This document shows positions 10,275 to 47,344 of a DNA stretch of 64,000 nucleotides, in pieces; the stretch's first letter is position 1, and each line of letters starts with the position of its first letter. The translations under genes were made by a program, and so were the position numbers. Below the pieces are notes generated by a model that worked only from the letters and a program-made list of their open reading frames with translations, searched no databases and had not been told where the DNA came from. The DNA is from Labia minor (lineage: Eukaryota; Arthropoda; Insecta; Dermaptera; Spongiphoridae), in contig OY720348.1 of NCBI GenBank assembly GCA_963082975.1, positions 21,753,146 through 21,817,145 of the forward strand, in the 5' to 3' direction.

Positions 10275-10453
10275 TTATAAATAAAATAAAAAATATTTAT
10301 GTTCTATCCATATCTGTTTTTTATTACATTAATCGATATATTAAAATTATTTGAAATTGTTTAGGAAATTAATTAATAATTAATTAATTAAGCTGGAAAT
10401 TAATTTACTTCAAACCGTCGGTCGTTTCGGACCTGGCCACAGGTCAACTTATT
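10275..10453 (-). mobile_element. Family A 5'-end fragment (A3)
   Basis: Third member of the tandem array, keeping only the 5' section with the hairpin, the subterminal repeat and the AT-rich block containing CATATCTGTTTTTTATTAC. A small TTAATTAATTAATTAA expansion is present. Confidence 0.7.
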
Positions 10454-11281: not shown

Positions 11282-11576
11282 AGGCGCCACTGGGTGAGAG
11301 GCTAGCGTCGCTGTCTCACATTCACGTGGTCCTGGGTTCATGTCGCGGGCCTGGCAAGGGAATTCCTCTAGCTGGGGTCTATGGGACGGAGTCAACCCAG
11401 CCTCCGGGATCAACATTGGGTAATAGCTACTTGATACAAAAGAGCGCCTCCGATCAAGAAAATCAAGGTAAAGGTTGATAGGACTCGTTCTACTGATCAT
11501 AGGACACTTAATTGATATAACCAACTTGATAGGCGCTGTCCTTGCATAGGACGTACAAAAGTCAGAGGTTTTTTTT
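11282..11576 (+). repeat. tRNA-type SINE with 14-bp target duplication
   Basis: The 295-bp unit has a tRNA-like head (GGGTGAGAGGCTAGCGTCGC, then GGTCCTGGGTTCATGTCGC, fitting A- and B-box positions), a GC-rich body and a T-rich tail. A direct repeat TATAGAAACATTTA flanks it at 11268-11281 and 11577-11590, the signature of target-primed reverse transcription. The minus-strand open frame across it is a by-product. A clean, probably young insertion. Confidence 0.85.
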
Positions 11577-11750
11577 TATAGAAACATTTATTACTTGGTC
11601 CTTTAAAAACAAATCACAAAACACATTAAAAAAAAATCGTTCTCCTACCAAGAATTTAATTTTTAATTTACAATGGCTTAAACATATGAGTTCAATAAAC
11701 ATTGGAAGAGATTAAAATTAATAAAGACTAAAAAAATTAAACTTCGTATT

Positions 11751-12295
11751 TTTACCGACCGACGATAGTAAGGGAGGTATTGTTTTCACACCAAATTTCA
11801 CATGTAGAGATTTTTACATATCTCCACGAATCATGCATTTTCTTAACAGAAAAAAGTATTTTTAGCATGATGTCTGTCCGTGGGATGAATTGATCAACTT
11901 TTGGTGCAAATCGGGAAACCGGAAGTGGTGGTATTAGCAATCGACGATAGAAAGGGAAGGGTTATTTTCACACCAAAGGAGATTTTTTTATATATCACCA
12001 CAAATCATGCACTTTGTATTGGTTTTATCCTCGGGAAAATCATATTTATTAGTTTTTTCTTGATTTAAAATTATATGACGTCATCCAGCCATTCATGACG
12101 TCACAGCCTGGTCTTGCATATATATTATAAATAAAATAAAATTAAAAATGTTTATATTTATTATTTATGTATCCATATCTGTTTTTTATTACATTAATAG
12201 ATATATTAAAATTATTTGAAATTGTTTCTGTAGTTGGAAATTAATTTACTTCAAACCGTCGGTCGGTTCTGACCTGGCCACAGGTCAACTTATTT
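11751..12295 (-). mobile_element. Family A element, internal deletion (A4)
   Basis: Both ends are present (TTACCGACCGACGATAG at left, CCACAGGTCAACTTATTT at right). About 90 bp around the GACGGACAGAC microsatellite are deleted, joining GTCTGTCCG to TGGGATGAATTG. Both TGACGTCA sites remain. It abuts a family B element immediately to the right. Confidence 0.75.
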
Positions 12296-12895
12296 ACTAT
12301 CTCGTAAGAGATAGTATTGCGATCACGAAAATTTTCGATGTTGAGATTTTGATGTTTTTATACGTTTTGAAGGTTCCTGAATCATTTTCACTAAGGTTGA
12401 GAAAAATGTCTGTGTGTGTGTATGTGTGTGTATGTATGTAACCAAGATTACGGAAAAACGGTTTGAGCTAGAATGATGAAATTTGGGTCATGAGCATTAT
12501 TCAAAATTCATAGTTTTCTATCAACTTTTGAGAAATGAAGCTCAACCGGAAGAGGGTCATTACCTACAACGTTTTGATTTTTTTTCCTCTAAAGTCACCG
12601 TAAAAATAAAGATATATGTTTGATAATTTTTCACATGATTAATAATTGTATAAAACTGCTTTATATAGAATTTCAGCTTGATTGATTCCCTGAAATTACC
12701 AGAATTAATTTTTTAACACTGCAAATCTCACGCGCCAACACACGACATGGTGCCATCAACAAAAAGCCAAACATGCGCTGGTTTAATATTTATTATTTAT
12801 AATTTATAATTAATTAAATTTAATTTAAATATAATATATTTTGTTATTTAATCCAATTTAAATTGCGAGATAGTCGAGTGGTGACACTCCAGCTA
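12296..12895 (-). mobile_element. Family B Helentron-like element (B1)
   Basis: On the minus strand it begins AGCTGGAGTGTCACCACTCG, then the subterminal repeat GACTATCTCGCA, and ends in its inverse next to an ACTATCTC.../GAGATAGT hairpin. Inside are a GT-rich microsatellite (TGTGTGTATG), a core with GATGAAATTTGG and CAACCGGAAGAGGGTC, and the block ATGGTGCCATCAAC. No coding capacity. Confidence 0.72.
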
Positions 12896-13307
12896 ATTTT
12901 TTTATATAAACATAAACGATTAGTAAATTAATTTTAATATTTTTACGAATAGTATAAATAGATATATTTTTTGTGTTTTTCTTTTCAATCTGTAAAAGAA
13001 GTTACATTTTTATCTTATTTATTCCATTTTATTTTCATCCCCAAAGTTATGAACCACGCCTCCAACAATTCAAAAAATAAAAGATTTATAGATTTTATTT
13101 ATAGTATATTACAGATAAAAATTAATCAATCTTAGGATATCTTAGGATATCTAAATGTATATAATTTGATATTAAATTATAATAATAAATTATTATAAAT
13201 TATATCAAGTTATTTTATTAACTTTAAATGTATCAATTTAATAAATATATAATTACGAAAACTGAAAAATATGTTATGTGATATTGTTATACTTTGAAAA
13301 CATAACA

Positions 13308-14625: not shown

Positions 14626-16966
14626 ATGGATCTTTATTCACAAGAAGACACAAAATATCCAATATATATAGGTAATTTTCTATTTTAATGTGTTTTTTCA
14701 TCTAAAGCATGGGTTTCCAAACTTTTTTTGTCTCGTAGACCCCTTGCCATGTTTATCGGTTTTGGATAGACCCCCCTAAATTGATTTTGATTTTTTATAA
14801 AAATATTTTACCCTTTTTTTAGAGCCTTATTGAAAAATCAAAAATGATTTCCTTTTTTTTTAGAGTAGGGGAAACACGTAGTAGACCCCCATAGACTCTG
14901 ATTTTCATTTCATGGACCCCCAAATTTGTTATTGGCTGGCGTAGACCCCTTGCAGGTCTAAATCGATTCCTAAAAAAAAATTAAATATTTGTTTAATAAA
15001 AATTAAATTAAATATTATATAAAATAAAAAATATTATTTTATAAATATAAAAAAATAAAAAATATTCTATAAATATAAAAAATATTATTTTAAATAGGAT
15101 TAAATATTATTTGAATAAAAATAAAATATTTTTTATAGCTAAAATTAAATATTTATTTATTTCCTTAACAATTTCTGGTAATTTATATATCTATGTTTTT
15201 TTCATCGAAAGTAATGTTAATAATCACCAAAATTATTTTTTTTAATATTATTTGTAGTGTATATTAATTATAAAATACTTAGATATATAAAAATATAATG
15301 AACTAAAATAACAAAATCTTTTTTAGGTCCTCTATATTCTTGCGTATATTGCCATACGAATTTTATAAGTGAGGAATTTTTATGTAAACATCTAAAAAAA
15401 TGTTTTCATAAAATAATATTTTCAATATTCAAAAATGATGTAAAACTCAAAAAGGATACGGAGAAATATTTAGACGAAAAATGTGAAGAAGAAACTGATT
15501 CAATCCATACAGAAGGCAATCGTTTACAATGTAATTATTGTAAAAAGAAATTTAATGTGAAATCAAATTTAGATAAACATTTATTAATTCATACAGGAGA
15601 AAAACCTTTTGAATGTAATTATTGTGAAAAGAAATTTAATCGGAAATCACATTTAAAAACACATATATTAATTCATACAGGAGAAAAACCTTTTGAATGT
15701 AATTATTGTGAAAAGAAATTTAATGTGAAATCAAATTTAGATAAACATTTATTAATTCATACAGGAGAAAAACCTTTTGAATGTAATTATTGTGAAACGA
15801 AATTTAATCAGAAATCAATTTTAAAAACACATTTATTAATTCATTCAGGAGAAAAACCTTTTGAATGTAATTATTGTAAAAAGAATTTTAATATGAAATC
15901 AACTTTAAATAGACATTTATTAATTCATACAGGAGAACAACCTTTTGAATGTAATTATTGTGAAAAGAAATTTAATCGCAAAGAAATTTTAAATAAACAT
16001 TTATTAATTCATACAGGAGAAAAACCTTTTGAATGTAATTATTGTGAAAAGAAATTTAATGTGAAATCAAATTTAAAAACACATTTATTAATTCATACAG
16101 GAGAAAAACCTTTTGAATGTATTTATTGTAAAAAGAAATTTAACCAGAAATCAACTTTAAAAACACATTTATTAATTCATACAGGAGAAAAACCTTTTGA
16201 ATGCAATTATTGTGAAACGAAATTTAATCAGAAATCAACTTTAAAAACACATTTATTAATTCATACAGGAGAACAACCTTTTGAATGTAATTATTGTAAA
16301 AAGAATTTTAATATGAAATCAACTTTAAATAAACATTTATTAATTCATACAGGAGAAAAACCTTTTGAATGCAATTATTGTGAAAAGAAATTTAATCGGA
16401 AAGAAACTTTAAATAAACATTTATTAATTCATACAGGAGAAAAACCTTTTGTATGTAATTATTGTAAAAAGAATTTTAATATGAAATCAACTTTAATTAA
16501 ACATATATTAATTCATACAGGAGAAAAACCTTTTGAATGTAATTATTGTGAAAAGAAATTTAATCGGAAAGAAACTTTAAATAATCATTTATTAATTCAT
16601 ACAGGAGAAAAACCTTTTGAATGTAATTATTGTGAAACGAAATTTAATCAGAAATCAACTTTAAAAACACATTTATCAATTCATACAGGAGAAAAACCTT
16701 TTGAATGTAATTATTGTGAAAAGAAATTTAATCAGAAAGTAACTTTAAAAACACATTTATTAATTCATACAGGAGAAAAACCTTTTGAATGTAATTATTG
16801 TAAAAAGAATTTTAATATGAAATCAACTTTAAATAGACATTTATTAATTCATACAGGAGAAAAACCTTTTGAATGTAATTATTGTGAAAAGAAATTTAAT
16901 GTGAAATCAAATTTAAAAACACATTTATTAATTCATACAGGAGAAAAACCTTTTGAATGTAATTAG
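14626..16966 (+). CDS. C2H2 zinc-finger array protein (two exons)
   Basis: Likely a nuclear DNA-binding protein of 561 residues. Exon 1 is 14626-14671 (MDLYSQEDTKYPIYI, donor G|GTAATT); exon 2 is 15327-16966 (acceptor TTTTTAG), joined within a glycine codon. Residues about 20-43 form an atypical finger CVYC...H...C. Seventeen canonical fingers follow in 28-residue steps (CNYC-X12-H-X3-H) joined by TGEKPFE linkers. There is no KRAB, ZAD or BTB domain. Putative base-contact residues fall in few classes (VKSN, RKSH, QKST, MKST, RKET), and the 84-bp units are nearly identical, indicating recent tandem duplication or homogenisation. The protein stops at GEKPFECN because the next finger is broken. 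The frame continues upstream of the GTG at 15557 to the acceptor. Targets are unknown. The intron holds a hAT-like relic. Confidence 0.9.
14708..14970. mobile_element. Degenerate hAT-like MITE in zinc-finger gene intron
   Basis: Starts CATGGGTTTCCAAACTTTTT and contains repeated GTAGACCCC(TT) blocks typical of hAT MITEs of the TTCCAAAC class. The expected right inverted end is not clear (AATCGATTCC is only a weak match) and no duplication was found. Confidence 0.45.
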
Positions 16967-18825: not shown

Positions 18826-19412
18826 ACTCGACTATCTCGTAAATTTGAAATGAATTAATTAACACGTATATTATATTTAAATTAAATTTAATTAATTAAA
18901 TTATAAATTAAAATTAATAAATATACATATATTAAACCAGCGCGTGTCTGTTTCTTTGTTGATGGCACCACGTCACGTGCTGGCGCGTGATTTGCAGTCG
19001 TGTTCACAAATTAATTATGGTACTTTCAGCGATTCAATCAAACAGAAATTCTATATATATAGCAGTTTTATACAATTTTTAATCATGTGACAAACTATCA
19101 AACATATATCTTTATTTTTACGGTCACTTTAGAGGAAAAAAAATTAAAACGTTGTAGGTAATGACAGTCTTCCAGATGAGCTACATTTCTCAAAAGATGA
19201 TAGAAAACTACGAATTTTGAATAATGCCCGTATACCAAATTTCATTATTCTAGCTCAAATCGTTTTAATCATGTCTACATACACACATATACACAGATAT
19301 TTTTCTCGACCTTAATGAAAATGACTCAGGGACCTTCAAAACATATAAAAACATCAAAATCTCGACATCTAAAATTTTCCTGATCGCAATACTATCTCTG
19401 GCGAGATAATAA
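18826..19412 (+). mobile_element. Family B element, near full length (B3)
   Basis: Starts at the subterminal repeat CTCGACTATCTCG and ends at the ACTATCTCTGGCGAGATA hairpin followed by A residues. The core (CAAATTTCATTATTCTAGCTC and its neighbours) and an ACACACATATACACAG microsatellite are present. The very 5' GGAGTGTCTCC hairpin is missing. Confidence 0.7.
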
Positions 19413-19950
19413 AAATTGGTAATGATAAAAAATAGTATAATATAAAATAATACATAATAGTAACATTATGATGATTAAATATATTAGTAATTTATTTCTA
19501 AGACTTATTTATACACTGAAAAAATTTGAAATTAAATTGTGTTATAAAACATATCCTCCAAGGTAGGCAACCAAACGTGATGGAAAATTGTAGAAATGAT
19601 AGAAGGGGAAGGAAGAGTCAAGCAGCAATCCAATTCATACTCTCCGCTTAACTTCAATTTTAGATAGGACATTACTTTTTATTCACAATTCAGATTAGAT
19701 AAATAAATATCACTAAATTAATGAATAAAGTATATTTTATTATGGAATAAAAGAATAGTAAATGGAAGATTTTCTTGAATATCTTGAAATTTCTTATTAT
19801 TATATTTATTATACTACCGAATTTCATCATCATATATAAATATATATATAATTCCAAATCGATTAAGAATTAAAAATAAACAAATGTTGAATATCCATTG
19901 AGCCCTTCTTCAAGATTTTGTTGTATAATTCATAAAAATGTAGAATTTCA
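19413..19950. other. AT-rich stretch downstream of miR-263b
   Basis: No gene or repeat recognised. On the minus strand this is the region just 3' of the miR-263b hairpin, so it would belong to the tail or intron of its primary transcript. Confidence 0.4.
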
Positions 19951-19951
19951 A

Positions 19952-20025
19952 GTTGTGAACTTTGGCACCGAAAGATCCACGATTCATATCTATCTGTGAA
20001 TTCTTCCAGTGCCAAGACACACAAC
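19952..20025 (-). ncRNA. mir-263b: microRNA miR-263b precursor
   Basis: On the minus strand a 74-nt hairpin carries a 5p arm starting CUUGGCACUGGAAGAAUUCA (19994-20016). From memory this matches arthropod miR-263b, seed UUGGCAC, with about one base different from Drosophila. The 3p arm (19961-19981) starts CGUGGAUCUU and pairs along the whole 5p arm; a lower stem GUUGUG/CACAAC extends it and the loop is about 12 nt. In Drosophila miR-263a/b protect sense-organ precursors from apoptosis by repressing hid; the family is related to vertebrate miR-183/96/182. Its likely 5' exons lie at 20.5-21.3 kb, and miR-263a lies 11 kb upstream on the same strand. The plus-strand frame starting at 19962 overlaps the hairpin and is not taken as a gene. 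Confidence 0.95.
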
Positions 20026-20457
20026 GAGATGAAGAAGGCAGAAAAGAAAGTAAATCATCTTACAATCACAATCATTCTTCTTTCAAAAGCATTGTAGCAG
20101 CATTGGGTAACATCTCAATACATAATTCATGGACTCCTATTCTTAATTATAGTAAATCTATTTTTTTTAAAATACAAAAAAATTATAAAAAAAAAAAGAA
20201 AATTAATATTAGATGTAATAAGTATAATATACATATCTAATAAAAAAAAAGAAATTGTAGTATAATAGAATAGGGAGAGTGAAAAAAAAAAGAGGATGAG
20301 GTTTGTCCTTGTGGTATATATTTCAGTAGTAAAGAGTAAAAGGATGATTGAGAAGGTTTCCTGACATCGGCAACTGGCATAGAAAGAAGAAAACATGAGG
20401 CGGAGATAAAAATTGGATCAATAAAATGCCTCTCGGAAGGTAATGAATTTTATCCTT

Positions 20458-21290
20458 ACCTGGAAGAGCAGCTTGATGATTGGGAATCGGTTTTAAGGGA
20501 GAGTGACACCTGCACCTAACCAATTCGACCATCTGTTCCCTTTCCAAGCTTATTTCATCTCCCGAGGTTCTACGTTGACGAAACAAAATTCGAGTCTGAA
20601 CGGGAATGCGGGTGAGTCGATAAACGGATCAATAGGTTCGAGTCGTCGACGAACTGAGCAAACTCACCTTTGGTCAACGAGGGAGGTGGGCAGCCCCAAT
20701 CAACAAGCACGCAAACAAGCAATCAGTAGCTTAGGAATCGACCGGCGAGCCTGACAACCTGGCAACCGGGAAGAGATTCCACGTAGGGGAGGCATTTCGG
20801 AAAAGTAGCCAGATGGCTTATTTCAGGGGGACTCCACACCTGCACGACTGGATGACTCAGCTGAATGTGTTGTACCCGGTGGCAACTCTACAACGCATTC
20901 GCCGAGTACACCTCGAGGCAGGTCCTGTGAACGGCCCAAAAAACCAAACTCACCCGAGCTCTGGTCGCCACGAAATGTCACGACAAAATAAACAGAACGA
21001 GCGTCTCGTTGCCAAGCAGCCCCTCGATTTATTGATTCCCGTTGAGTGACTCTCGAATTAATTGCTTGCTTTGGCTTAGCACACCCCCTCCCCCCTCCCC
21101 ACCAAAACCCACCTCACCTCATCTCTCAACCCCGACGCCACCCCCCAGAATGCGCTTGCGCGTCGACAGCCAATCTGAATCGTTTCTAATTAGCGGTCGA
21201 TCGACCGGCGACCAATCGTCGCCAAGAACCGTCCTTCGTATAGGGGCGCTATAAACTCACCCCCCCTCCCCTCCTCCCCGGGATGAATAA
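20458..21290 (-). promoter_or_regulatory. GC-rich island, candidate 5' exons of pri-miR-263b
   Basis: An abrupt GC-rich block in very AT-rich surroundings. Read on minus it holds four strong donor-like sites: CCAG|GTAAGG (exon end 20460), AAAG|GTGAGT (20668), CGG|GTGAGT (20954) and GGG|GTGAGT (21261). No long open frame on either strand has recognisable content. The miR-263b hairpin begins about 430 nt beyond the last donor, fitting alternative first exons of a non-coding primary transcript. Role inferred from position and splice motifs only. Confidence 0.5.
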
Positions 21291-21990
21291 CCATCACCCC
21301 ATCTCGCTTATTGACTGCGCTTTCCTCGAACAAAATCGATAGTTGCACACGAAGATCGATTCAAATAATATGTCTTTTGGTCTTGAAACGCTCCATTTCA
21401 CAATTACATCATTAGAAAGGGTTACAAAATTAAATAAAAAACAAAAAAAAAAACAAAAAAACATACTTATTATTATAATAGCAATTAATTAAGAAATATG
21501 TAGAAATTATATCAGAGTGGGTTGAATTTGATCTTTGCTGATTCATTATATATATATATATATATTTTTTAATAATTATTTAATAGATAAAAGATAAAGA
21601 TAATTTCCATATCCATTTAATTAGAATGATAGTACATTTGTCAATAATTAAAATGATACATAATTAATCAAAATTCATGAAATATTAAATCTTAATATAT
21701 TTTCTTTTTTTTTTATTATCGCCTTTTTATTTTTGAATTATGGGAATTTAATGAATGTCAACGATCAAAAAATTAGGTCACTATCATCATCAGCATATTC
21801 CCAGAATGTTAAATCAATATTCTACAGTATGGAAAATTTGACAACGATGAAATATTTTTTTTTTTTGTTATAATCGATTAACCAACTAGAAGAGATAATT
21901 TTTATATATATTTATCTAAGATGAGAAAAATTAAATCCTAGTATGATGAAGTAGAGTATAGTGTTGAATGAGATTGGATGGTGGTGGTGG
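21290..21990. other. AT-rich stretch between two GC-rich islands
   Basis: Contains an A-run near 21440 and a TA repeat near 21546-21566. Nothing else recognised. Confidence 0.4.
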
Positions 21991-22330
21991 TGTAGAATAC
22001 CTGGCTGGTGATGCGTAGCATCCCCGATGGGTGAAGGAGGGCCGGCAGCCCTGGAGTGACTGGTGGCCACGGTGGAGAGCAGCCGAAAGACCTGCAGTGG
22101 GAGTGGCCCTCGGCCAGGTTGTTTCCCTTGAGCCGCGTTCCCACCTGCTCGCCACCACAAGCCATTATGCTATCGGGGGATGGCAAGGTTAATGAGCACC
22201 GAGATATTAAAGAAAGGGAGGAAAAGTCACTGGAGGGTAAAAAAAAAAGGAAGAATGGCGGGAGGTGACGGGGGGAGGAGGAGGAAGGGGAATGGGGAGG
22301 GGGAAGTGGAAGGAGAGAAAAGGGTGGTAA
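21990..22330. other. GC-rich, CpG-containing island of unknown role
   Basis: Compositionally like the other islands, with a purine-rich right half (GGGGGGAGGAGGAGGAAGGG). Overlapping short frames on both strands have no recognisable domain. It lies upstream, on minus, of the miR-263b island and may be a further regulatory or exonic block of the same locus. Confidence 0.35.
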
Positions 22331-22777
22331 CACACGCTACATCGCATTTCGTCAAAAAGCCAAAATCATTCTTAAATCTATTATTTTATAGAGAATATAA
22401 TAATCATTGTTGTTCTTTGAAAGAAACTACCCCCTAATATGAAAATATTTTATATTTTATTGCAACATAAAAATATTACATCAAATTGTCATTAAATTTT
22501 GAAGATTTTATAACGTATCGTCGTTTTGATGTCTTTTGAATATGAGACTGTGTGTGTGTGTGTGTTTGAATTATAATACATACAGCTTACAGTTATCATA
22601 TCATAATAACAATTATATTATATAAAAAATATTCTATGTATATAATACTTAACGATTTGTATTTGAAAGATAAAGTGGATAAACTCAGTGCCAGTATTCT
22701 TAAGTCAGGAAGCTTGATTCCCATTTTCCCTTCACTTAAAAGAATTTTTATTATATAATTATAATAAAAGAAAATTT

Positions 22778-22781
<4 letters not shown>

Positions 22782-22816
<35 letters not shown>
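22782..22816. repeat. (TA)n microsatellite
   Basis: About 17 uninterrupted TA units. Confidence 0.95.
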
Positions 22817-22821
<5 letters not shown>

Positions 22822-23049
22822 TTTTATATTTAAAAAGATGGAATTGCATTTAATATTTTAAAAAAATCCTTACGAAAATATATAAAAATATTTCAACCCG
22901 AATATTCAAAGTTTAAATAGAAATCTATTGAATGAATTCCAAATTATATTATTAATTATAATAACACAAATAATAATATGAATTAATTTGAATAATGAAT
23001 TTTATGGATTTATTCTCGTTCAGATAAAATTAATTGGTAAGTAAGGAAA

Positions 23050-23170
23050 TGGGAAGGCATTTCCTTAAGGAACGATATACCACAGCGATACCAACTCCCC
23101 CGCACGGTCACTTGATTCGCCAATCAATACGGCCATGGGGGTTCCACAAACATTCTTGTCCCCTTAATTG
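23050..23170. other. Small GC-richer block, unassigned
   Basis: A 120-bp block (for example CCAACTCCCCCGCACGGTCA and ACGGCCATGGGGGTTCC) stands out from the AT-rich context. No hairpin, open frame or transposon end was recognised. Confidence 0.3.
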
Positions 23171-23479
23171 ACTTGCCTCTTAAATTAGATTCATATAATA
23201 CAAAAAAAAAAAAAAAAAAATAATAAAAAATAAAAAATATCTAAGAATATAATTTAGAATTATGTACTTTTAAAAACTCAAAGGTACTTATTTCAGTTGT
23301 TTAAATATTTGAAATATCAAATTAATATTTCGTTGAAATAAAAAAAACAGGTAAATAATACAAGAAAATTACTAAATCTTTTAATGATTTATTAATGATA
23401 CAAAACCTTCTATTTTATGCGAGCTATGTTTGTTGGTTTATATGTTGTTTTTTTTGCTCTTTTAAAATACTAATTGAGT

Positions 23480-23510
<31 letters not shown>

Positions 23511-24106
23511 AACGCGACTAGAAGTTCAATATTATAGTATGTTCAAAAGAGAGAAAGTATGAGAAATTTCTTTTAATTATTATTTTCATGACGATTTATT
23601 TAAAGAAATTACCATAGATAAATATAGGATATATAATAAATAAATACTATTATAAACTCTAAGAATTTTAAAATATTTTATTAATATATTAATAAGTATT
23701 AAATTTTTAATATTATTATTTATTTATTTTTAACTACAATATATATATAGCATAAAGTTATTAAGTTCTTATATGTAGTTAGAAAAGGCGGAATTTTGTT
23801 TTAAGAGTATTAATTTTAAATCAAATATAAATAAAATATTTATATTACATCCAATTTAAGTTCATAGTGGGGGAAAAAAACATAGTTCATTTATTAATAT
23901 AAAATCACTCTACTTAATAGGATGAATTGCAACCGCCTTATAAACAAATTTAACAGTTACTAGTTTAAATATAAACTAATAATAAGTAATATTTAAGATG
24001 TTTTTTGTCTAAAATAATTTGATTTATTTTTTAAGTGAAAACTATCTGAAATGTTATGAGTTGGCTTCACCAAACATACTGTATTTGTATACCTGTAGCT
24101 ATAAGA

Positions 24107-24452
24107 CAGTGATTCTCAACCACTGTGCAGCGGTGCGAGATTTTCAAAATGTGCCGCCAAATTTTACAAATCTAAAGTTCAAATTAAGAAAAAGTACTTA
24201 TTTATTTTATATGTATGTGAAAAAAAAGGTCAAATGTTTTTGCGATCAGGCTCTTAAACATTTTCGATTTTTCAATATGGCTCTAAGTATCACCAAATGT
24301 GCCCATCCCTGTTATATTATTTCAGAAATGTATCATAACTATATTACACACTCTATTATAGGTAAGTAAATAACTTATCTTTTTCTTTGTGAGCCGCAAA
24401 ATTTTTAAACTGTGAGAAGTGTGCCGCGGTAAAAAAAGGTTGAGAATCACTG
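24107..24452. mobile_element. hAT-type MITE, 346 bp, perfect 8-bp duplication
   Basis: Ends CAGTGATTCTCAACC and GGTTGAGAATCACTG; octamer CTATAAGA is perfect on both sides (24099-24106 and 24453-24460). Contains the CCGCGGTAAAAAAAGG block shared with the copies at 6051 and 8568. The plus-strand frame from 24019 runs through it and is treated as chance. Confidence 0.9.
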
Positions 24453-24469
24453 CTATAAGACGTTAGATG

Positions 24470-25754
24470 CTTTAATATTAACCACAAAATATAATTTTAA
24501 ATTTATGTATTGAATTTTGAAAGTATGATTAGTAATGAAACATTATTGCTTTATTAGCAAAATGTCCAATTGAGATAAAATGCAAAAAAATCCTTAAATA
24601 TCATGTAAATTATATATGTATATATATATAGGTATATATTTGTTGCTCGGAATGCCAGACTAATGTTATTGATATGTTATTGATTATAATTTACAAATTT
24701 TAAGTTGGAATCTTTGTTACTAAAATTAAATTGAATACTAAATAAAAAAAAAACACCGTTATTTCTTAGTTTAAGTTTTCATTTCTTTTGGCTGTCCCTA
24801 ATGACTGCCCACCTTTTATAATTTTAATAATTTCATTCAGATTTTTTTTTAATGAAAATAAATTCTTTCATTATTTTTTTGTCAGGTATTGGATGTGATT
24901 GTTCCTATAAAACGAAAAGGGTGATAACTTTTACATAAAAAGATTAAAGGTTGTAAGTGTATGGGGTATATTCACAACCCAAGTTTTACCTAATTTAGAA
25001 ATAATCTATATATTCATAAAAAATATTAATTTCAAATATATATAAATCAATAAATTTGAAATTATATAAATATATAAAACATTTTTTTATTTTTTTTTTT
25101 AATAATTATTTTTAATTATCTTCTACTATCATTTTTTTAAATAAGTAATTGCTGTTGATTTGTAATAATTTAATGTTTTTATTGAAATTTTTATGTCAAC
25201 TATTTTTGGAGTGATTTATGTGTAAGCTTCTCTAATTCTCGTTACTCTGCAACACAAATAAAAATTATATCAACAAGAAATATTATTTATGTTTTAAAAC
25301 AATTGTAAAAACATTTTTCTTAATACCTTAAATTTAGAGTTCTTTAAATCTCATTATATTTCGACTTGAAATTTGTACAGACCTTTTATATTATTAATTA
25401 CTACCAACAACTAAATAAATGTGATAGTTTAACAAAAAAATTTTCAATAAATAAATAAAAGTATGAAATTATAATCATAAGAATAATATATATATATTAT
25501 TTTTATTATTATTATTATTAATATTAAATTTTTGAATTTTTCTTCTTCCTTACAAATTCAAGTTTAACATTGAAATAGTAAATTATATCGTTGTAATTTG
25601 TATTTTCTATATTTTAATAACTTCTTGGGCATTCTGCCAACATTGACATTCATTCATATCAATGACCGTTGAACTATCCATAATATGGTAAGAAGATCAG
25701 TTTAATATAATCAATCTTCTCAATTTGTTCTTTAAACAATTTTAGTATCTATTA
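24470..25754. other. AT-rich stretch, nothing recognised
   Basis: Poly-A/T and ATT repeats (about 25504-25520) only. No gene, RNA or element end was seen. Confidence 0.4.
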
Positions 25755-25762
25755 TAAGTAGC

Positions 25763-26347
25763 CAGTGATGTATTGGTAAAATAAAAAGTAAGGGAACGCA
25801 TAGTGGGAGCAAAAAAAAATTCCTATTTTCAGCAAACTATTTTTTTCCATATAAGTTTTTATTTTTTCATATTCTTACTATACAAAATATTTAAAACACA
25901 AAAAAAAAGAAATTCTAACAGTAGATTTAAGTGGGAGTTGTCGGGACATGTAAAAGTACTGGAAAGCGTTCCGGTTCTGAAAAAAGGTAAGAGAACGTCG
26001 TTCCCCCGCGTTCTCCTCCCAATACTCTACTGCAGAGGTTCTTAAACTTATGTACTCCGCGAACCCCCACTTGAAAAAAACAATTTTGACGGACCCCATC
26101 CCAACTTTAGGTACTTTACGTAATTTTATTAGTTAATTTCTGGCTTACGATCTCATAAGAACAAGGATATTTGATGAATATTTCTAACAGTGATTGGTGA
26201 ATAACGATTTTTTTGCATATTGTAGAACACATTTTATTAGAAATTATAATATTGAAGAAAGAAAATTCAGCTTTGCGGACCCCCAGTAAAGGCTCCGCGG
26301 ACCCCCAGGGGTCCGCGGACCACAGTTTAAGAACCTCTGCTCTACTG
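25763..26347. mobile_element. Outer hAT-like MITE interrupted by a second MITE
   Basis: The left end CAGTGATGTATTGG matches, inverted, the right end CCAATACTCTACTG. Flanks TAAGTAGC (25755-25762) and TAAGTAAC (26348-26355) form a 7-of-8 duplication. A second element sits inside at 26033-26339 and used the outer element's last eight bases, CTCTACTG, as its target. Confidence 0.75.
26033..26339. mobile_element. hAT-type MITE, 307 bp, inserted in another MITE
   Basis: Ends CAGAGGTTCTTAAACT and AGTTTAAGAACCTCTG, a perfect 16-bp inverted repeat. Octamer CTCTACTG is perfect on both sides (26025-26032 and 26340-26347). The body carries CCGCGGACCCCC blocks near the right end. Confidence 0.92.
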
Positions 26348-26355
26348 TAAGTAAC

Positions 26356-27150
26356 CTATGAATATGCTCGTCAGGAGAGAGATCAACAAATTCAATTATA
26401 ATATATTTATTTTTATTTTTTAGTTCAACGAATTATATTTTCTACATTCAAATCATTAATTTTCAAAAAGAAGAAGAGACTACCGATTGGCTTACCCTTT
26501 GAATTACTTTTGGTAGTATTAACATAAAAAGCAATAGAATTTCTTTCTTACCCTCCGAGTAAAATTTTTTAACAGTAAAAATGTACAATTTATTGTCAAA
26601 CAATTGCTTGAAAGGGTCATTAGAATCATTTCTTTTAATTTTTTTTCAATTGTATTATTATTATTATTATTATTAATTTTACATTTTGCTTTTTTATAAA
26701 ACTAACATTTATTTATAATATAGTATAATATCCTCAAGTTATAATTGAATTTATTTTTTTTAATTATAATCTCCTATGATTAATAATATTAACTATTATA
26801 ATTTATATAACTTCCTATAGTAACATGTTTTTAATTTTATTTGAAAAGTTTTTATAAAGCTTTTCTTGATATTTTTTTTAATAACTTAGTTACACATATA
26901 CTAATACTAATAATAAGAATAATAATATTTATATGATCATTTGATTTAAATATTTATATATATATATATATATACTTTAAATAGAAATTATAAAATTAAA
27001 ATATAAATGATAAATCATTTTAAATTAATTTTCAATATTCAATCCCTTAATAAACTTAATTTAAAACGACCTAACCACTCATAGGTATGAATTAAAGCTT
27101 GCAATTAAACGAATATTATTGACCTCGAATATCATAATTTAAAAATTTAA
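26356..27150. other. AT-rich stretch, nothing recognised
   Basis: ATT and TA microsatellites (about 26654-26674 and 26955-26973) and poly-T. No other structure was found. Confidence 0.4.
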
Positions 27151-27166
27151 ATTTAAAAATATATAT

Positions 27167-27305
27167 CAGAGGTGGCCACACTTGGTGATACTTAGAGCCA
27201 TATTGCAAAATTGAAAATGCTACCTTTTCATGTGTCATGACTCTTAATTTTTTAATTGAGCCACAATAAACTCGAAAAGAGCCATATGTGGTTTGGCCAC
27301 CGTGG
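27167..27305. mobile_element. Short hAT-like MITE (CAGAGGTGGCCA end)
   Basis: CAGAGGTGGCCACAC at left and GTTTGGCCACCGTGG at right are imperfect inverted repeats. AGAGCCATAT occurs twice inside. Flanks ATATATAT and TTATATAT are compatible with a duplication but are low complexity. Confidence 0.55.
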
Positions 27306-28067
27306 TTATATATAATGTATTATACAAATTTTGTTCCTTATAATTTTCGAAAAAATATATGACAGTTCTCGTTTCCTAATATAAAACTATAACTTTATCA
27401 AATTCTATTGTCATTCGAATAGATTTATGTACCAAATATACACATACATACATATATTCATTTTTATAAATATTTTATATAGAAAATATTTCTATATTCC
27501 TTGCTGGCGTTCTTTAGTTAAGTTTGTTTATTCGTACAATTAAAATAACCCGTTCCAAAGGGTTGAAATAAAAGAATGACAGTCAAATAAAGCCATGAGG
27601 TCAGATTAATATGTTAATTGTTATTCGTGTGATATCGTTAATACAAATTTATTGGAAATTCTTTAAAAAAAATAAATAAAAATATTAAAACTTTTTAAAT
27701 TCAAATATCCACTAAATAATGGATTCAATTTTTGTTTTTCATTGTTTAAATTTAAATTGTAAAACAAAATTATAATTTTTGTAATTTTATGTAAAATTAG
27801 AAGAAAAAAAATGAATTATACATTTCTTCAATATATTTATGAAAATATAATTATTTAATTAACTAATATATGTTTTTAAGGGTAAAGGGGATATATTCAT
27901 CGAATCGGATTATAATCTAAAAAGCCTAAAACCAAAATTCATAAATAATAAACATGACCATTTAAAAATAATTCGAATTTTTTAAGTCAGTGAATTTGAA
28001 ATTCTTGGGGTATTTAATTAAATTCTTAGTCTGTTTTTTTTTAATATAAAACATAATTGTTGAGGTG

Positions 28068-28165
28068 AGGATAATTAGTTCTTGTCGAGTGAACTACCGG
28101 AAGTGCAGGTCGAAGGGCACGGAAACGCAGCCAAGCAGAGCCTACTTTCTTAGAGAGAAATCTGC
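28068..28165. other. GC-richer block, unassigned
   Basis: The segment with GAGTGAACTACCGGAAGTGC and CACGGAAACGCAGCCAAG is compositionally distinct. It contains GAG|GTGAGG on plus, but no open frame or hairpin supports a gene. It may be another conserved block of the miRNA locus. Confidence 0.3.
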
Positions 28166-28654
28166 AGAAATATTCTCATCAACATCTTGTTAGTAGAGAA
28201 TATTTTGGGTTTTATTTTTTACGATTGGATATACCAAAATGTTTTACCTAACGTCTAAAAAAAGGAACGGTTGAAAAATATTTGAAAAGAAAAAAACATC
28301 TGTTTTTTTTTTTCAAAGATGAAATGTAATGATCACACTTGATGAAAATTGAGAATGATATTCTTTTCCATGGTCTTTAACTATACAAAAAATAAATAAA
28401 TAAATAATTAAAATGCATAAACAAAGAAATACATTCATTTATTAAAATTCATACAATGAAATATTAATAAAGAATGTATATTTTTTAATATTCTATCACT
28501 TCTATATATTTTATAAAATTGTCTTTTCTATGAAATTATAATTGAATCGATTTTTCAAATAATTAAATTAATTACGAATGGCATGCATCTAATTAGCATA
28601 GAATTGATATGTTAGCGAAATGACGGCTCCATAATTTGTCTATTTATTTTATGT

Positions 28655-28686
28655 GTCGGCATGAGCCACCGGTGGTACATGCCGGC
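28655..28686. promoter_or_regulatory. 32-bp near-perfect GC-rich palindrome
   Basis: The centre CCACCGGTGG is a perfect palindrome. Outer arms GTCGGCATG and CATGCCGGC pair with one mismatch; 28 of 32 positions are symmetric. It stands alone in AT-rich DNA between the two miRNA hairpins. It could be a dimeric protein site; the function is unknown. Confidence 0.45.
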
Positions 28687-28959
28687 GGGAACGTGTTATT
28701 ATTTATTATAGAATTAACCAACCCTATCATTCCAGTCTATAAATATTTAAATACAATAAAAGAAAGGAAAACTGAATAATTATTTTTTTTTAATAGCGAA
28801 AAAAAGAACCCTAACCCAATGAATGGTTTAAATTATTTTATTGTTTTTATTTCTATTTCTATATAAATATGTTTTTCTTATTTTTTAAAAAAAAATCATC
28901 ATTTCTATGAAATAAAGTATAATATATAATTAAACAAAAAAAAAAATAAAATAATTAAA

Positions 28960-29215
28960 AATGCAAAAAAATTTTACCGGTACACGGTTCGTTGCATTTC
29001 TTCATGATCTAATAAGACTAGATTTATTTAGTTTGATAACTTTTCATTCTGGCCTCATAAAGTACAAAAGACTTGATTCTTCCCTGACTATGGAAATGCA
29101 CCATCGCCTTGCTTTGATTGCTCTTGCATTGTCTCGCCTGGCAAAAACCAAAAGACATTACATCCATTCCCGATCCATCTCGCAACTGTTTTTACAATTA
29201 CTTTCCAACTAAAGC
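28960..29215. other. Moderate-GC segment with an open frame, no call
   Basis: An 83-codon plus-strand frame covers this segment. Its product has no recognised motif, no splice context was identified, and the composition is only slightly above background. I treat it as non-coding unless homology shows otherwise. Confidence 0.25.
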
Positions 29216-29219
29216 TGCG

Positions 29220-31090
29220 TTAAATTTCTCATGGGAAAATTTCGTGTGCAACTTATGTTGTTGAGCAACTGTGTTTTCGAGATGATAAATCCTCTTTGAT
29301 ACTTCCGATTAATGATTTACTTTGAAAAATTCGATGTAGAAAAAGAATTATTGAAAAGTTTTTGAACTGAAAAAAGGAAGATATATATATATATATATAT
29401 ATATTTGTGAAAGAAGTTCTTTTTTATTTCTTTTTTTTTCATTGCTAGACAGTTATGACCAAGAGAATTCAGCATGAAGAAAAGACACCTTCTAACTGTT
29501 CCTTTGGTTCAAATTGAGGATTGTAATCCAAAATTTCAAATGATATAGAATTTTTATTGCTACTCCTACTTATTTGTGTAGGAGTGTCTCTGTAATAATA
29601 ACGATAATAATAGTTCTTTTATGCTTTCTTTTTTTTTTATTCTATTTGATGATATTAAAGACTATTTTCGATCCAGTCGATGGTTGCTTTAACCACTTGA
29701 CAATGTACAAATGAGAATTCTCATTCGGTTTTCTATTTTTTTAATCCAGTTCGCTGAGTATAGTAAACATTTGAATTTCTGAATGCCGAGGATAGATCGG
29801 TAAATCTTAAATACTAAGCCAAGAAATATTTTTTGTTGTTTAGTCCTCTCTTTAAGGAGTGAGAATGATCTGCGGTTTCGATTGGCCTCAAACCATTTTT
29901 TTTTTTTTAATTTCCAGAATCTGTTTTTCTCTTCTTGATAATATTACAATATCTTTTCTGTTCTGTATTTCAAACTTTTTTCAAATAAAAAAGTCTCTAA
30001 AGCATTCAACCCCGTAACATTAACCCAACTCTTCCATCATTTATGATTATCATATACTAGTTCGGTTGATGATGAATATTAAATTTCCCCTTAAAATTAA
30101 TTTTGAATGAAGAAACAACTAAAATGGTTTCAATAATATCTTGCATAATATTTACAACATGACGTCTAGTTTTACATAATTTTGAATGATTTTTTTTCTC
30201 TAATTTGGAACAAACAAGCAATCTTTAATTGCACGGAGAACTATTGTTTAATTTAAATTAGTAAAATGTTATTCACGAAGACAAATTATAAACTTTAATC
30301 AAAGAGCTGATATGTTGGTAGTTGGTTTTTCAAAATTCATCAAATATGGTAACAAAAGCAATGATGACTTTAGATATAAACCATAATTTCTTATAAAATA
30401 TTAGTTTAAGAATTCAACTGCATTGATAATAATGATAAGCAAAGAAGTGAAGTTGGGTAGTCGTGAAGGAATTTTTTTTTTTTTTGAATTCAATGTTTTA
30501 TTATTATTATATAAACTGAAATAAATCAAATAGCTTGGATAATCATATTTTAGTTGATCTTTACATACCGATAACGAATTATGAAAAACATCTATTGACA
30601 AATATATTTTGATTAGATTCAGTGAATTATTGAAAGAATTAAAAAGATTATAAGAAGGGAAAGGAGTGATTGATTCTTTGGAATGATTATGGCTATACCT
30701 TTGTGAAGATAAAAGTGCAATAAAAGAAAAGACTTTCAAATTTAAAGTTATTTGTTAAATTACATGCTGGTCATCGATAAAATAAATTAGAAAATGATAC
30801 CAATCAAGAGGAGAGAGGTAAGTATCCGAATAAATAAAGGGAAAGATTTTAAAAATGAAGACAATTTGGATTACTGCGTTCAGTAATTTATTTTAGAGAA
30901 AACGAAAAGAGAAGAAATAAATGTAAAAAATAGTAAAGGCAAGCGTGGTTTCTCGCATCAGTTATTTTCGGACACGCACATTCAAAAAAATAAAGGCCCG
31001 TTGCACGTTCTAAACCAAGAGTATAATACGTGCAAAGAGCAGAAGGGCTGGTGGGAAGTAGTAGAGCTGGATGCAGATGCTCGATGGAAA
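29220..31090. other. AT-rich DNA between the miRNA hairpins
   Basis: Contains a TA run (about 29384-29404) and poly-T. No hairpin resembling a known miRNA, no protein motif and no element end was recognised. On minus it would be intronic sequence of a shared miR-263a/b transcript, if that exists. Confidence 0.4.
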
Positions 31091-31099
31091 GACCCAGCG

Positions 31100-31169
31100 C
31101 CATGTATGCCACTGAAGATCCACGGGAAGTTCTTAAGAAGCCCGTGAATTCTTCTAGTGCCATTCATGG
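31100..31169 (-). ncRNA. mir-263a: microRNA miR-263a precursor
   Basis: On the minus strand a 70-nt hairpin has the 5p arm AAUGGCACUAGAAGAAUUCA... at 31141-31164 (24 nt), matching miR-263a with seed AUGGCAC and ending CACGGG. From memory it differs from Drosophila only at position 10 (A for G). The 3p arm at 31103-31124 begins CGUGGAUCUU and ends GGCAUACA. A CCAUG/CAUGG lower stem closes the hairpin. In flies this miRNA protects mechanosensory bristle lineages and is processed from the non-coding bereft transcript. Strong minus-strand donor motifs 120-270 nt upstream suggest its primary transcript is spliced. The minus-strand open frames overlapping it are not genes. Confidence 0.96.
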
Positions 31170-31174
31170 AACGG

Positions 31175-31505
31175 GGACTGCAGGTACTTCTTGAAGCAGC
31201 TCCGGGCCAGGACTAAGTAACGAAGACTCGCGGAGCCGAAGAAGAGTGCAGGTGGCGACGGCGGGGAAACCAAGAAGAGCGGAGAGGCTCACCGGGGATG
31301 TGGTTGGCTGCGCACCACTGCGGCCGACCCGCTCCAGTGAAAACAAAAGTGTCAAGCAAATGAACTCGCCGCCCCTAGAGTCCAGCTGCCTCCACCTTCC
31401 TCTTCGGTTCGGTCCACTCACCTACCCAAAATCACTTACCTTCCCTTCAAGCGAACCTCCCTTCGATGATACCCATCAGACACCCCACTCCACTGACAAG
31501 ATATA
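31175..31505 (-). promoter_or_regulatory. GC-rich island, candidate 5' exons of pri-miR-263a
   Basis: Dense CpG block. On minus it has donor-like sites AAG|GTAAGT (exon end 31440), TAG|GTGAGT (31422) and CCG|GTGAGC (31293), all in the orientation of miR-263a just downstream. Open frames on both strands lack recognisable content. Most likely a non-coding exon or promoter block of a bereft-like host transcript; inferred. Confidence 0.5.
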
Positions 31506-31962
31506 ACCACGAAGACATTCCACCCAACTCCCACCTTACTTTTGATTCTATCATTCAACAACGAAAGAATTAAAATTAGTTTCTCTCTAACCAACATTCT
31601 ACCTTCCATCATGAGAAAAATTATAACTATTTTTATTTATTTATTTATTTTCAATGTAAAGAATATAAACTTAAATTTAGTGAAACGGTCATTTTGTCAA
31701 ATATTCAGTACAAATATTATTTATTTTTAAATGATAAAAAGAATTTATTCATTTTTTTTTATTTGTAAAAAATCTATTATTATACAACAGCAGTCGGGGA
31801 ACTTTTTTAATCATTACCCCAAAATATTTTTGTGTAAGTTGATATTACCCCATGGTGAAGATTTTTACATATACAAAAAAAAACAAACGAAATCGCCTCT
31901 TTTTAACATCTTTCTTATTATAGCCCCCCATGAAAAAGAAAACAATAACTAATTTTAATTGG

Positions 31963-31998
31963 TAACAATACCTCCCTTACTATCGTCGGTCGGTAAAA
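31963..31998 (+). mobile_element. Family A 3'-end fragment (A5)
   Basis: AACAATACCTCCCTTACTAT followed by CGTCGGTCGGTAAAAA is the terminal 35 bp of family A, with no trace of the rest. Confidence 0.7.
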
Positions 31999-32679
31999 AT
32001 ACTAACAGGTTTGTTTATAAAATAGTAAATTAAAAATATATACTTTTTACTCACAAAAGTTTCATTTTTTTTAATCTATTTGAGGTAATTTACCTCGGTT
32101 CCTCGATCGCTGTTATACAATGAAAGTAAAGATTACTCTTAAAATGGAAAAATTTTGTAGAATCGAATTAAACAAAAAAAATTTTGTATATTTTTTATTT
32201 TTGTGTTTGTTTTTTTTAATTAAAATTATCATATTATCATTTTCTTAATTTGCAAAGTTAGGTTTGAACTCCTATTTGTGAATGATTTTCAAAAAAGAAA
32301 TTAAAAATAATTTTCAATTAACAAAAGAAGGTTTTTTTTTATTTGAGTAGATGAAAACTTCATATATTTATATATATATATATAAAGTACATAATACTAG
32401 ATTTATGTTTATTAAATATATCAAGATCAAGGATTGAAAAATCTAGTTAGAATTTAATTTTCCTTGAAGAATAGAAATTATAACTTTGAATTATTGAAAG
32501 AAAAGAATTGATAAAGGAAGAACTAATTTTGGTAGTCAATCATCCTGAGGTGAGAAGACTCCAGTAAAAATTCAAATAAATATCCTTTAAAAAGAATTTA
32601 AAAAAAATACATGAAGCAAAAGTTCATTGTTCCGATGTTAAGAAAAAAAAAAGAAACCGTGTTGTTTGTCAAAGAAATG

Positions 32680-33170
32680 ATCGTCATTTCCCAAGAGCGC
32701 GTCAAGGGGCTTGGAACAAAGCGAGGTTCCGCACGGCCGATGCACCGTGGCCGAATTTGCGTGCATACGTGCCCTGGGAGGAGAGTGCGTGTCTGAAGAC
32801 CGGAAGTACCGCGCATCCTTGCTCGCGCTTAACGGCGGAACCAGCCAGCCACAAAAAAAAATAATAAAATGAGAATATATATATATTATATATAAAATAC
32901 AGCCCAAGAAATGGTAGGAAATCGATATTGCAAACGAGTGCATTGGCCAATTGGGTAGGGTTCCGCGAGTTCCCAGGAGATGAGGAGAGAAGCTCACCGA
33001 TTTCTTAATCCGAGTGCGGGTCATCGACCGCGCCGCTGCTGCAAGCGGGGGTGCATTTGCCAACCTAGGCTCAAGCTAACGGACCTCTCGCCAAGGGATC
33101 TCATCGTGTCCCACTTCCCTTCCGATACCCATTCGACAATCCCTATCGACTGAACGAATTATTATTAAAG
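32680..33170 (-). promoter_or_regulatory. GC-rich island with minus-strand donor motif
   Basis: Two GC-rich halves separated by a short TA run (about 32875-32895). TCG|GTGAGC on minus (exon end 32998) repeats the pattern of the islands at 20.5 and 31.2 kb. It lies 1.6 kb upstream of the miR-263a island on the same strand. No convincing protein on either strand. Confidence 0.4.
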
Positions 33171-33399
33171 ACCTGTTGCCCTCCATCAACTCCACTTTAG
33201 GTCTAGCTACTTATTTGGACCTATTTTACCATTTTATATATAACAAAGAAGTTGAACAATTCATTACTAAAGGAAATAAATAAAATAATAATCATGCATT
33301 AAATATTTTATAAATATATTATTTTTACCAAGTTAAAAATAATAATTTTTCTAAAGTTATAATATTAAAAAATAAAAAATAAAATATTTTATTATTTGT

Positions 33400-35921: not shown

Positions 35922-36451
35922 AAGTTGACCTGTGGCCAGGCACAGAACCGCGAATAAATATTTTTAATTTTATTTTATTTATAATATCTAAGGAGGCGCT
36001 AGCTGTGACGTCATGAAGGACTCGGTGACGTCCTATAATTTTAAATTAAGAAAAAACTAATGAAAATGATTTTTCCCGAGGCTGAAACCAATACAAAGTG
36101 CATGATTCTTGGGTAAAAAATCTCCTCATGTGAAATTTGGTGTGAAAATAACCCTTCCCTTCCTATCGTCGATCGGTAATACCACCACTCCCGGTTTCCA
36201 GATAAACACCAAAAGTTGATCAATTCATCATACTGATGCATTAAGTAAATATACCAAAATGTATCAAAATCCGTTGAGCCGTTCAAGCTGCTGTACACAT
36301 CTATACGGACAGACAGACGAACGGACAGACATCATGCTAAAAATACTTTTTTCTGTTAAGAAAATGCATGATTCGTGAACATATGTAAAAATCTCCACAT
36401 GTAAAATTTGGTGTGAAATCAATACCTCCCTTACAATCGGTACTATGGTAA
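35922..36451 (+). mobile_element. Family A element with degenerate ends (A6)
   Basis: Starts AAGTTGACCTGTGGCCAGG; the subterminal repeat is largely lost (ACAGAACCGCG) and the 3' end is TACAATCGGTACTATGGTAA instead of CGTCGGTCGGT. The core, the GACAGACGAACGGACAGAC tract and one intact TGACGTCA remain. An old copy. Confidence 0.72.
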
Positions 36452-37430
36452 AAATGTAAAATTTTTCGAATAGAAAAGAGTGTTCCCTCTAATTTTTTGA
36501 AATTTTAAAATTTGAGTAGTATTAAAATAAAACTGTTTACACGATACACAATAAATATAATATCGATGAGTGTATGTAATATTTTAACTACTTAACCTGT
36601 ATGACATCCAAAATTTTATTTTAAGGAGGTAAAATTTTTTATGTGTGTTATATTTAAAATATCTGTGAGTGGGTTCACGCACAAGGTGTGATTAAGTTTC
36701 TTTTGTATTAATATATTTGTTCAAATTTAAAGTTATATATAGAATTATTTTTCGATTCTAGATAAAATACTCAATATTTAGAAAAAATTTTGAAAATTTC
36801 CTCATTAATCATTTCTAATTTGGGAAATAAATCTTTCCGAATATGTATATTCATATTCACATATGACATCGATGACATCATATTTCCCTGACAGTCATTT
36901 TCTTATTTTTGATTTCATTAAATGATGAAATAATTATATAATAAATTGATCTTGATTTAAAATAAATGAAATAGATTTAGAAATAATTGTAAAATATATT
37001 ATATAAAAACATATACGTAAATTAATAATAAAAAGTTTTGTATAGTTTAAATTGAAAGGAAAACGATAAATTTTATTTTTCAATATACGATGTTGGATCA
37101 TTATTTCAATTACATCTAATCTTCAAGAACAGTAAAAAGTAAATATTATATATATTAATATTTATAGTAATATCATGATAATGTATATACATATATTCAA
37201 AAAGATTATACTTGTCTCAATTTTCTTTCTTTTAAACAGATTATTTAAACAAAAAAGTCTTGAGAAAATTTTTTAAACATTAAACAAAAAAGATTTGATG
37301 ATATGTTTTTTTAAAAATAAATTAACAAATAGTCATATACATTCATTAAAAACAAAAAATTCATTTATTTGTTTACTTAATAAAAATTATGTTTTTTTAA
37401 AAAAAAAATAATAATTTTAATTTTAAATAA

Positions 37431-38602
37431 GCGGGAGTGTCCTCCCCTAGACTTTCCCGCATTTAAATAGGTATAAAGGGTTGTGAATGAATATTTAGAA
37501 TGTGTAAACTTGGTATTGATAAAGAGCCAGTTCGTGTTAGTTTATTGGTGTCAAATTTGATATTTGGTAACATTTATATATATATATATAGAATAAAGTG
37601 CTACTTCCGGTTAACTGATATTTTAAATGTAAAAAAAACAGATATGGATATAATATAAATATTTTTAATTTTATTTTATTTATAATATATAAGGGCTGGC
37701 TGTGACGTCATGAAGTGCTGGGTGACGTCATATAATTTTAAATTAAGAAAAAACTAATGAAGATGATTTTTCTCGAGGATAAAATCAATACAAAGTGCAT
37801 AACACGTGGAGATATGTCCTCACGTGAAATTTGATATGAAAATAACCCTTCACTTCCTCTCTTCGATCGGCAATACTAGCACTTCCGGTTTCCGGATTTG
37901 CACCAAAAGTTGATCAATTCATCATACTGATGCATTAAGTAAATATACCAAATTTCATCAAAATCCGTTAAGCCGTTCAAGCTGTACACATCTATACGGA
38001 CGGACGGACAGACATCATGCTAAAAATACTTTTTTCTGTTAAGAAAATGCATGATTCGTAGAGATATGTACCTAAAAATATCCATAGGTGAAATTTGGTG
38101 TGAAAACAATACCTCCCTTACTATCGTCGGTCGGTAAAAAGGAAACGCTACTTGTATAGGTAAAATGTCACTTCCGGTAGTCAGATCATGATGAAATTTG
38201 GTATCTGAATTTTTTTCATATTTTTAAATCTATATACTAAATATGAAGCAAATATCTCGAAGCAAACTGGTACTTTACTTGAAAGGTAAACGCAACCAGT
38301 GTAGGTAAAGTACCACTTCCGGTTAACCAATTTTGACGAAATTTTGATAGAAATCTACAAACTGTGAATAATATCGGCGTACCAAATTTCGAAGTCCTAG
38401 CTTGATTAGTTTTTGAGTAAATTTGCTTACAGACATTACATACATACATACATACATACATACACACACACAGACATAATTCGAAAAATGGTATTTTCCG
38501 ATTCAGGGAGGTCTAAAACGTCAAGATCAATCGAAATCTCGAAGTCTAAATTTTTGACGATTCCAATACTTCCCTTATACGAAGTATGCGGGAAAGTAAA
38601 AA
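37431..38602 (+). mobile_element. Family C Helentron-like element, hosting family A
   Basis: The 5' end GCGGGAGTGTCCTCCCCTAG forms a GGAG/CTCC hairpin and is followed by GACTTTCCCGCAT. The 3' end has the inverse ATGCGGGAAAGT plus A residues, after GAAGTATTGG-type sequence on the other strand. Inside are a CATACATACATACA microsatellite and two core blocks (GATGAAATTTGGTATC; CACTTCCGGTTAACC). A family A copy (37630-38139) interrupts it. Confidence 0.65.
37630..38139 (+). mobile_element. Family A element nested in family C (A7)
   Basis: Lacks the 5' hairpin but keeps TGACGTCATGAAGTGCTGGG and a second TGACGTCA, the core, the ACGGACGGACGGACAGAC tract and the 3' end CGTCGGTCGGTAAAAA. Confidence 0.75.
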
Positions 38603-39767: not shown

Positions 39768-40005
39768 AATATCAATTTATACTAATTATTTAATCATATA
39801 TATAGTTTAAAAACACTTGTTGATAAGTTAAGTGAAAGGGTTGAAAGAACGATGGCACTATTTTATAGTTGTTTAATTTTACAATTGAAAAAAATTATTT
39901 TTCAATTATTTTAATGAAATTTTCTAGACTCTTTGAATTATTTAAATGAAAGAAAATATGAAGAAAAATAATAAATAATAAAAATAATAAATTTGTTATT
40001 TCAAA
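39065..40005. other. AT-rich stretch with a long TA repeat
   Basis: TA microsatellite at about 39725-39763; otherwise no gene or element recognised. Confidence 0.4.
39725..39763. repeat. (TA)n microsatellite
   Basis: About 19 uninterrupted TA units. Confidence 0.95.
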
Positions 40006-40007
40006 TT

Positions 40008-47340: not shown

Positions 47341-47344
47341 AAAA

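Follow-up and report, generated by a model that had tools for sequence, protein, structure and literature searches.

The arthropod microRNA genes mir-263a and mir-263b belong to the same family as the vertebrate miR-183/96/182 cluster, and here we describe a linked pair of them in a 64,000-nucleotide stretch of the genome of the dermapteran Labia minor (assembly GCA_963082975.1, contig OY720348.1, positions 21,753,146 to 21,817,145 of the forward strand); the whole stretch is referred to as the window. In vertebrates the cluster comprises three members that fit into about 5 kb, for which a joint primary transcript is described, and the passages of Dambal 2015 (PMC4551935) that deal with its history trace it to both protostomes and deuterostomes, with the order 183, 96, 182 in deuterostomes. 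In animals as distant from one another as nematodes, flies and mammals, the miR-183 family is a marker of sensory cells (Hilgers 2010, PMC2885982). The same paper places Drosophila mir-263a on 2L near bereft and examines a 263b deletion in combination with Df(3L)X-21.2, from which 263b lies on 3L. Thus, the same two genes lie on different chromosomes in Drosophila, as the initial annotation of the window had stated.

On the other hand, linkage of the two genes, which that annotation proposed to look for in other arthropods, is already in print for Daphnia pulex, the pea aphid and the whitefly Bemisia tabaci. The Labia pair is therefore a further example of an old arrangement, and the novelty at first implied for it was overstated. 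Marco 2013 (PMC3763532), in the passages on clustering, defines a cluster as precursors on the same strand with less than 10 kb between them, reports that mir-263a/b form a cluster in Daphnia pulex that other insects lack, and ascribes the Daphnia pair to duplication; Table 2 of that paper names mir-263a/b, while its text has mir-276a/b, apparently a slip. For the pea aphid, Legeai 2010 (PMC2880305) lists the cluster Ap-mir-263b/Ap-mir-228 (EQ127560-cl1, 30 kb), one of the two clusters called unusually long in the passage concerned. The name miR-228 is that of a nematode family member (Hilgers 2010, PMC2885982), it has been grouped in print with dme-miR-263a, and a Bemisia paper gives it to AAUGGCACUAGAAGAAUUCACG, the 263a sequence. 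From these uses of the name we infer that the aphid mir-228 is 263a. Both names, mir-263b and mir-228, also occur in the cited part of a Bombyx paper (PMC2835664). As for Bemisia, a whitefly table of 2020 (PMC7142546) gives miR-263a at NW_017547161.1:912282-912340 (+) and miR-263b at 950587-950647 (+), from which the precursors are 38,246 bases apart; the passages of that paper on these positions make no remark on linkage.

Comparison of the window with these systems makes it quite probable that it carries the two genes in an inherited a-then-b linkage, the spacing of which is free beyond 10 kb and which was broken in flies.

Two mir-263 hairpins on one strand

Scanning the window against Rfam (cmscan) gave only two matches above the gathering threshold, both to mir-263 (RF00706, cut-off 51.3 bits), both on the minus strand and both full length (model positions 1-86 of 86). 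By their Rfam extents, the mir-263a precursor hairpin occupies 31094-31175 (59.8 bits, E 9.2e-13) and the mir-263b precursor hairpin 19950-20027 (61.2 bits, E 3.5e-13), with a gap of 11,066 bases (11.07 kb) between them and 263a upstream on minus. The initial annotation had described both precursors on minus, 11 kb apart and with 263a upstream, and the scan confirmed this arrangement; its a and b labels are also correct, as the first bases, which distinguish the pair, read AAUGGCAC in 263a and CUUGGCAC in 263b. No third match to the family was found in the window at E up to 10 (13 rows), the other mir-263 rows being weak antisense images of both hairpins (26.3 and 26.8 bits) below the cut-off. 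Moreover, the two hairpins hold the sole occurrences in the window of the 19-base core TGGCACTRGAAGAATTCAC at up to 3 mismatches (shuffle mean 0.00, n=100). The same core was met in one IMG/VR contig and two bacterial metagenome-assembled contigs, none of the three with an Rfam match, and these hits were set aside as chance. ARAGORN found no tRNA in the window.

On the minus strand, 263a folds at -44.7 kcal/mol (z -5.4) and 263b at -36.5 kcal/mol (z -6.2), with 0 of 200 shuffles as good at either locus, while the plus strand folds more weakly at both (-36.7 and -26.7 kcal/mol, respectively). The antisense (plus) strand of the hairpins, at 19950-20027 and 31096-31175, also beats its shuffles (z -4.3 and -3.2, respectively). 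The 5p arms were read as AATGGCACTAGAAGAATTCACGGG for miR-263a-5p and CTTGGCACTGGAAGAATTCACAGA for miR-263b. The mature miR-263a-5p, AAUGGCACUAGAAGAAUUCACGGG (31141-31164, minus), is identical over 24 nt to the printed Bemisia miR-263a-5p, and the mature miR-263b-5p, CUUGGCACUGGAAGAAUUCACAGA (19993-20016, minus), is identical over 24 nt to the printed Bemisia miR-263b; the match also holds across the 22 to 23 nt printed in the table of PMC7142546. The 5p starts are at 31164 for 263a and 20016 for 263b, and the positions at which small-RNA reads had been anticipated fit these arms. In Bemisia tabaci small RNAs, miR-263b and miR-263a-5p each had more than 90,000 reads in both libraries. Given the Rfam scores, the folds and the 24-nt 5p identity to Bemisia, the two loci are identified as the mir-263a and mir-263b genes of insects.

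Each would be a standard Drosha/Dicer hairpin, with the 5p strand as the likely guide. The two microRNAs are related (seed AUGGCAC in miR-263a and UUGGCAC in miR-263b), and the sets of targets that they repress in sensory cells probably overlap; in Drosophila, miR-263a and miR-263b both act on hid, and bristle cells are kept alive by them. The 3p arm ends were placed from the fold on the assumption of a 2-nt overhang, which gives a predicted miR-263a-3p at 31103-31124 and a predicted miR-263b-3p at 19959-19981, both on minus. CNNC, which is a known processing aid in animals, is present 16 or 17 nt beyond the fold-predicted Drosha cut in both hairpins (+17 in 263a and +16 in 263b); a CNNC at any of three adjacent positions occurs at some 6% of positions window-wide and about 12% locally.

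The 263a-5p arm holds an uncommon A at position 10 (CUAGAAG). In the printed Aedes and Bombyx 263a sequences CUGGAAG stands instead, and an exact search of papers returned the A variant from Bemisia, Aleurocanthus and the beetle Diabrotica. In the folds, a G:G mismatch (GGCAC vs GUGGC) interrupts the stem of 263a but not that of 263b, and the Aedes 263a* as printed has the same GUGGCAU. The near-identical 3p starts pointed out in the initial annotation were recovered, with CGUGGAUCUU in both hairpins, but they have no value as evidence of linkage: the shared start is one letter off the Rfam consensus cGUGguUCuu and is thus a family trait, so its use as a sign of linkage or of gene conversion was dropped. 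Among the printed star strands, Aedes 263b* reads TGGATCTT, whereas Aedes 263a* does not.

Linkage, its age and its transcription

As tabulated for Bemisia, 263a stands ahead of 263b on one strand of one scaffold, as in the window, although the two are 38 kb apart there and 11.07 kb here. In the pea aphid, 263b is likewise linked to a microRNA with the nematode name of the family, at a spacing of 30 kb rather than 11.07 kb, and the linked Daphnia pulex genes, under the definition of Marco 2013, share a strand and are less than 10 kb apart. The window pair lies on one strand, but its 11,066 bases exceed that limit, which would miss the aphid and whitefly pairs as well. With linkage in print for three other lineages in addition to this window, inheritance is the simplest reading. 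The same-strand a-then-b linkage would probably go back at least as far as the ancestor shared by crustaceans and insects, its spacing having grown past 10 kb and the linkage itself having been broken in flies.

The linkage may perhaps be traced further, to the bilaterian miR-183/miR-96 pair. We take the seed of 263a to match that of miR-183 and the seed of 263b to match that of miR-96, and on these seeds the order in the window, with the 183-like gene (AAUGGCAC) upstream of the 96-like gene (CUUGGCAC) on one strand, agrees with the deuterostome order. The window differs from the vertebrate cluster in having two members, 11 kb apart. The tie to miR-183/96/182 that had been suggested for the pair is reasonable, and a claim about bilaterians is in print (Dambal 2015, PMC4551935).

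A number of points weigh against the explanation as a whole. Marco 2013 (PMC3763532), as cited above, has 263a/b unclustered in other insects and the Daphnia pair derived by duplication. The aphid entry carries the name mir-228, and the Bemisia positions rest on Aleurocanthus reads that were mapped to the Bemisia genome; Bemisia is the one of the three arthropods for which order and strand were compared. Separate contigs are given in print for the 263a and 263b genes of Aedes and of Bombyx, though this has little bearing, and two family members of the snail Biomphalaria are printed on different scaffolds; in the printed passages on Tribolium, tick, spider and snail, no positions were given for such a pair. 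The agreement in order, by itself, is as likely as not to be luck, and no 182-like third hairpin was found in the window at E up to 10 (cmscan). The CNNC positions hinge on the chosen arm ends. On the supporting side, no protein gene was detected between the hairpins, as none of the 35 open reading frames (ORFs; at least 65 aa and wholly in 19416-33333) reached the Pfam cut-off, in a scan that could miss spliced genes of small exons; 4 of the 35 had weak matches below the cut-off (E 0.0023 to 0.05), which count the other way but were taken as chance.

The pair may be transcribed as one unit or as two. Each hairpin is covered or closely preceded by G+C-rich sequence that could serve as its own start region. 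Against a window mean of 25.6% G+C, 13 G+C-rich stretches were found, and the peak (measured in 200 bases) was at least 57% in six of them, four of which fall at 20341-22420 and 30901-33260. One of these unstranded stretches, 30901-31600 (peak 61.5%), contains the 263a hairpin and is a candidate regulatory or exonic element, while 32581-33260 (peak 57%) lies upstream of 263a on minus. Similarly, 20341-21440 (peak 61.5%) lies just upstream of 263b on minus and 21881-22420 (peak 63%) upstream of it; their putative functions would be of the same kind. Two other stretches, 39981-40500 and 46641-47420 (peaks 60.5% and 63.5%, respectively), lie upstream of mir-263a on minus and could be distant starts of the locus.

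We consider the chances evenly balanced between a single long noncoding primary transcript and a pair of transcripts whose control is either joint or separate. A long 263a precursor has a precedent, because in Drosophila deletion of the first bereft exon abolishes mature miR-263a even though its hairpin is located 2.7 kb beyond the 3′ end annotated for bereft (Hilgers 2010, PMC2885982, in the part on this locus). A serious alternative, to which we would give somewhat less than an even chance, is that the genes owe their linkage to descent and yet have a transcript each, started in a separate G+C-rich region on minus, with termination in the 11 kb between them. The G+C-rich stretches, two blocks for each gene, cover or sit just upstream of each hairpin as such starts would, and 11, 30 or 38 kb is a long way for a single primary transcript to bridge. 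However, the same stretches could equally be exons or enhancers of one transcript, two other strong ones are present far upstream, and the order and strand of a and b are alike in the window and in the tabulated Bemisia positions.

More tentatively, and with doubt prevailing, the pair may be what is left of the bilaterian miR-183/96 transcription unit, which many arthropods would have kept for more than half a billion years, in order and strand, as one very long noncoding primary transcript with 11 to 38 kb between the hairpins, overlooked by surveys limited to 10 kb; flies would have broken it, each gene then coming under its own sensory control.

It is improbable that the linkage is secondary, brought about in this lineage by rearrangement or by a separate local duplication, even though the linkage is absent from Drosophila and the Daphnia pair is ascribed to duplication in the cited passages of Marco 2013 (PMC3763532). 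The 5p arms retain the a and b identities known as well from Aedes and Bombyx, in which the two genes are printed apart, the hairpins are unlike outside the arms, with no long flank in common, and the linkage is in print for the three other lineages. The recent duplication of a larger piece was rejected, as no long homologous flank was found between the two neighbourhoods (blastn, low-complexity filter off); the best match was one of 50 bases at 80% (E 1.9e-5) in AT-rich low-complexity sequence, and the others were short. A join error in the assembly, or a pair of non-functional copies, is very improbable in view of the intact mature arms, the strong folds, the CNNC motifs and the linkage printed from other assemblies (Bemisia and aphid).

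Neighbouring features of the window

A single repeat block of 150 bases or more was found in the interval 19416-33333, whereas many are present on both sides. An equally empty span was obtained somewhere in the window in 14% of 20,000 random placements, and in 0.6% if the interval is treated as fixed beforehand, although it was chosen post hoc; the placement test took 21 of the 26 repeat blocks, including a zinc-finger tandem array and local tandems, and dropped five short ones, of which two were inside the interval. Since the emptiness lacks significance in a test across the whole window, it was not used as proof of a constrained unit. The dispersed repeats (unstranded) were located at 9096-12903, 18826-19415, 35953-38143, 44044-44690, 47989-48575 and 61144-61903, and they comprise at least two families, with units of about 0.6 kb that are about 72-99% alike, flanking the microRNA interval on both sides. 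A scan for bacterial-type promoters and terminators gave no excess over shuffles and, being unsuited to an animal genome, was ignored.

Several other reading frames were noted at a distance from the hairpins. At 15302-16966 (plus), an open frame of 554 aa shows 17 C2H2 zinc-finger matches, which are encoded by an 84-base tandem unit present in 17.1 copies. An exon similar to the Artemis (DCLRE1C) nuclease lies at 60627-60881 (minus; best E 5.1e-4 against solved structures), and further exons that look Artemis-like by eye are likely within 58645-63003 (minus), with no Pfam match in any of the five frames scanned. At 63607-63879 (plus), a frame with no Pfam match has its best match among solved structures at E 9.7e-10 and is likely the initial coding exon of a PPM1H-like protein phosphatase. 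An 80-aa frame beginning SRRLRWAEHVARM at 50107-50346 (minus) had no Pfam match, and by eye we take it to resemble the tail of a non-LTR retrotransposon. Frames at 55933-56310 and 57031-57228 (both plus) look coding by eye and had no Pfam match, the latter with a single weak match to a solved structure (E 0.28).

Meaning for the family

A fixed limit of 10 kb in cluster surveys can hide old linkages. If the ordered linkage of the first two family members has persisted across the arthropods, selection is likely to have preserved, among other things, their co-regulation, and insects that have the linkage, unlike Drosophila, would be the right place to test that co-regulation.

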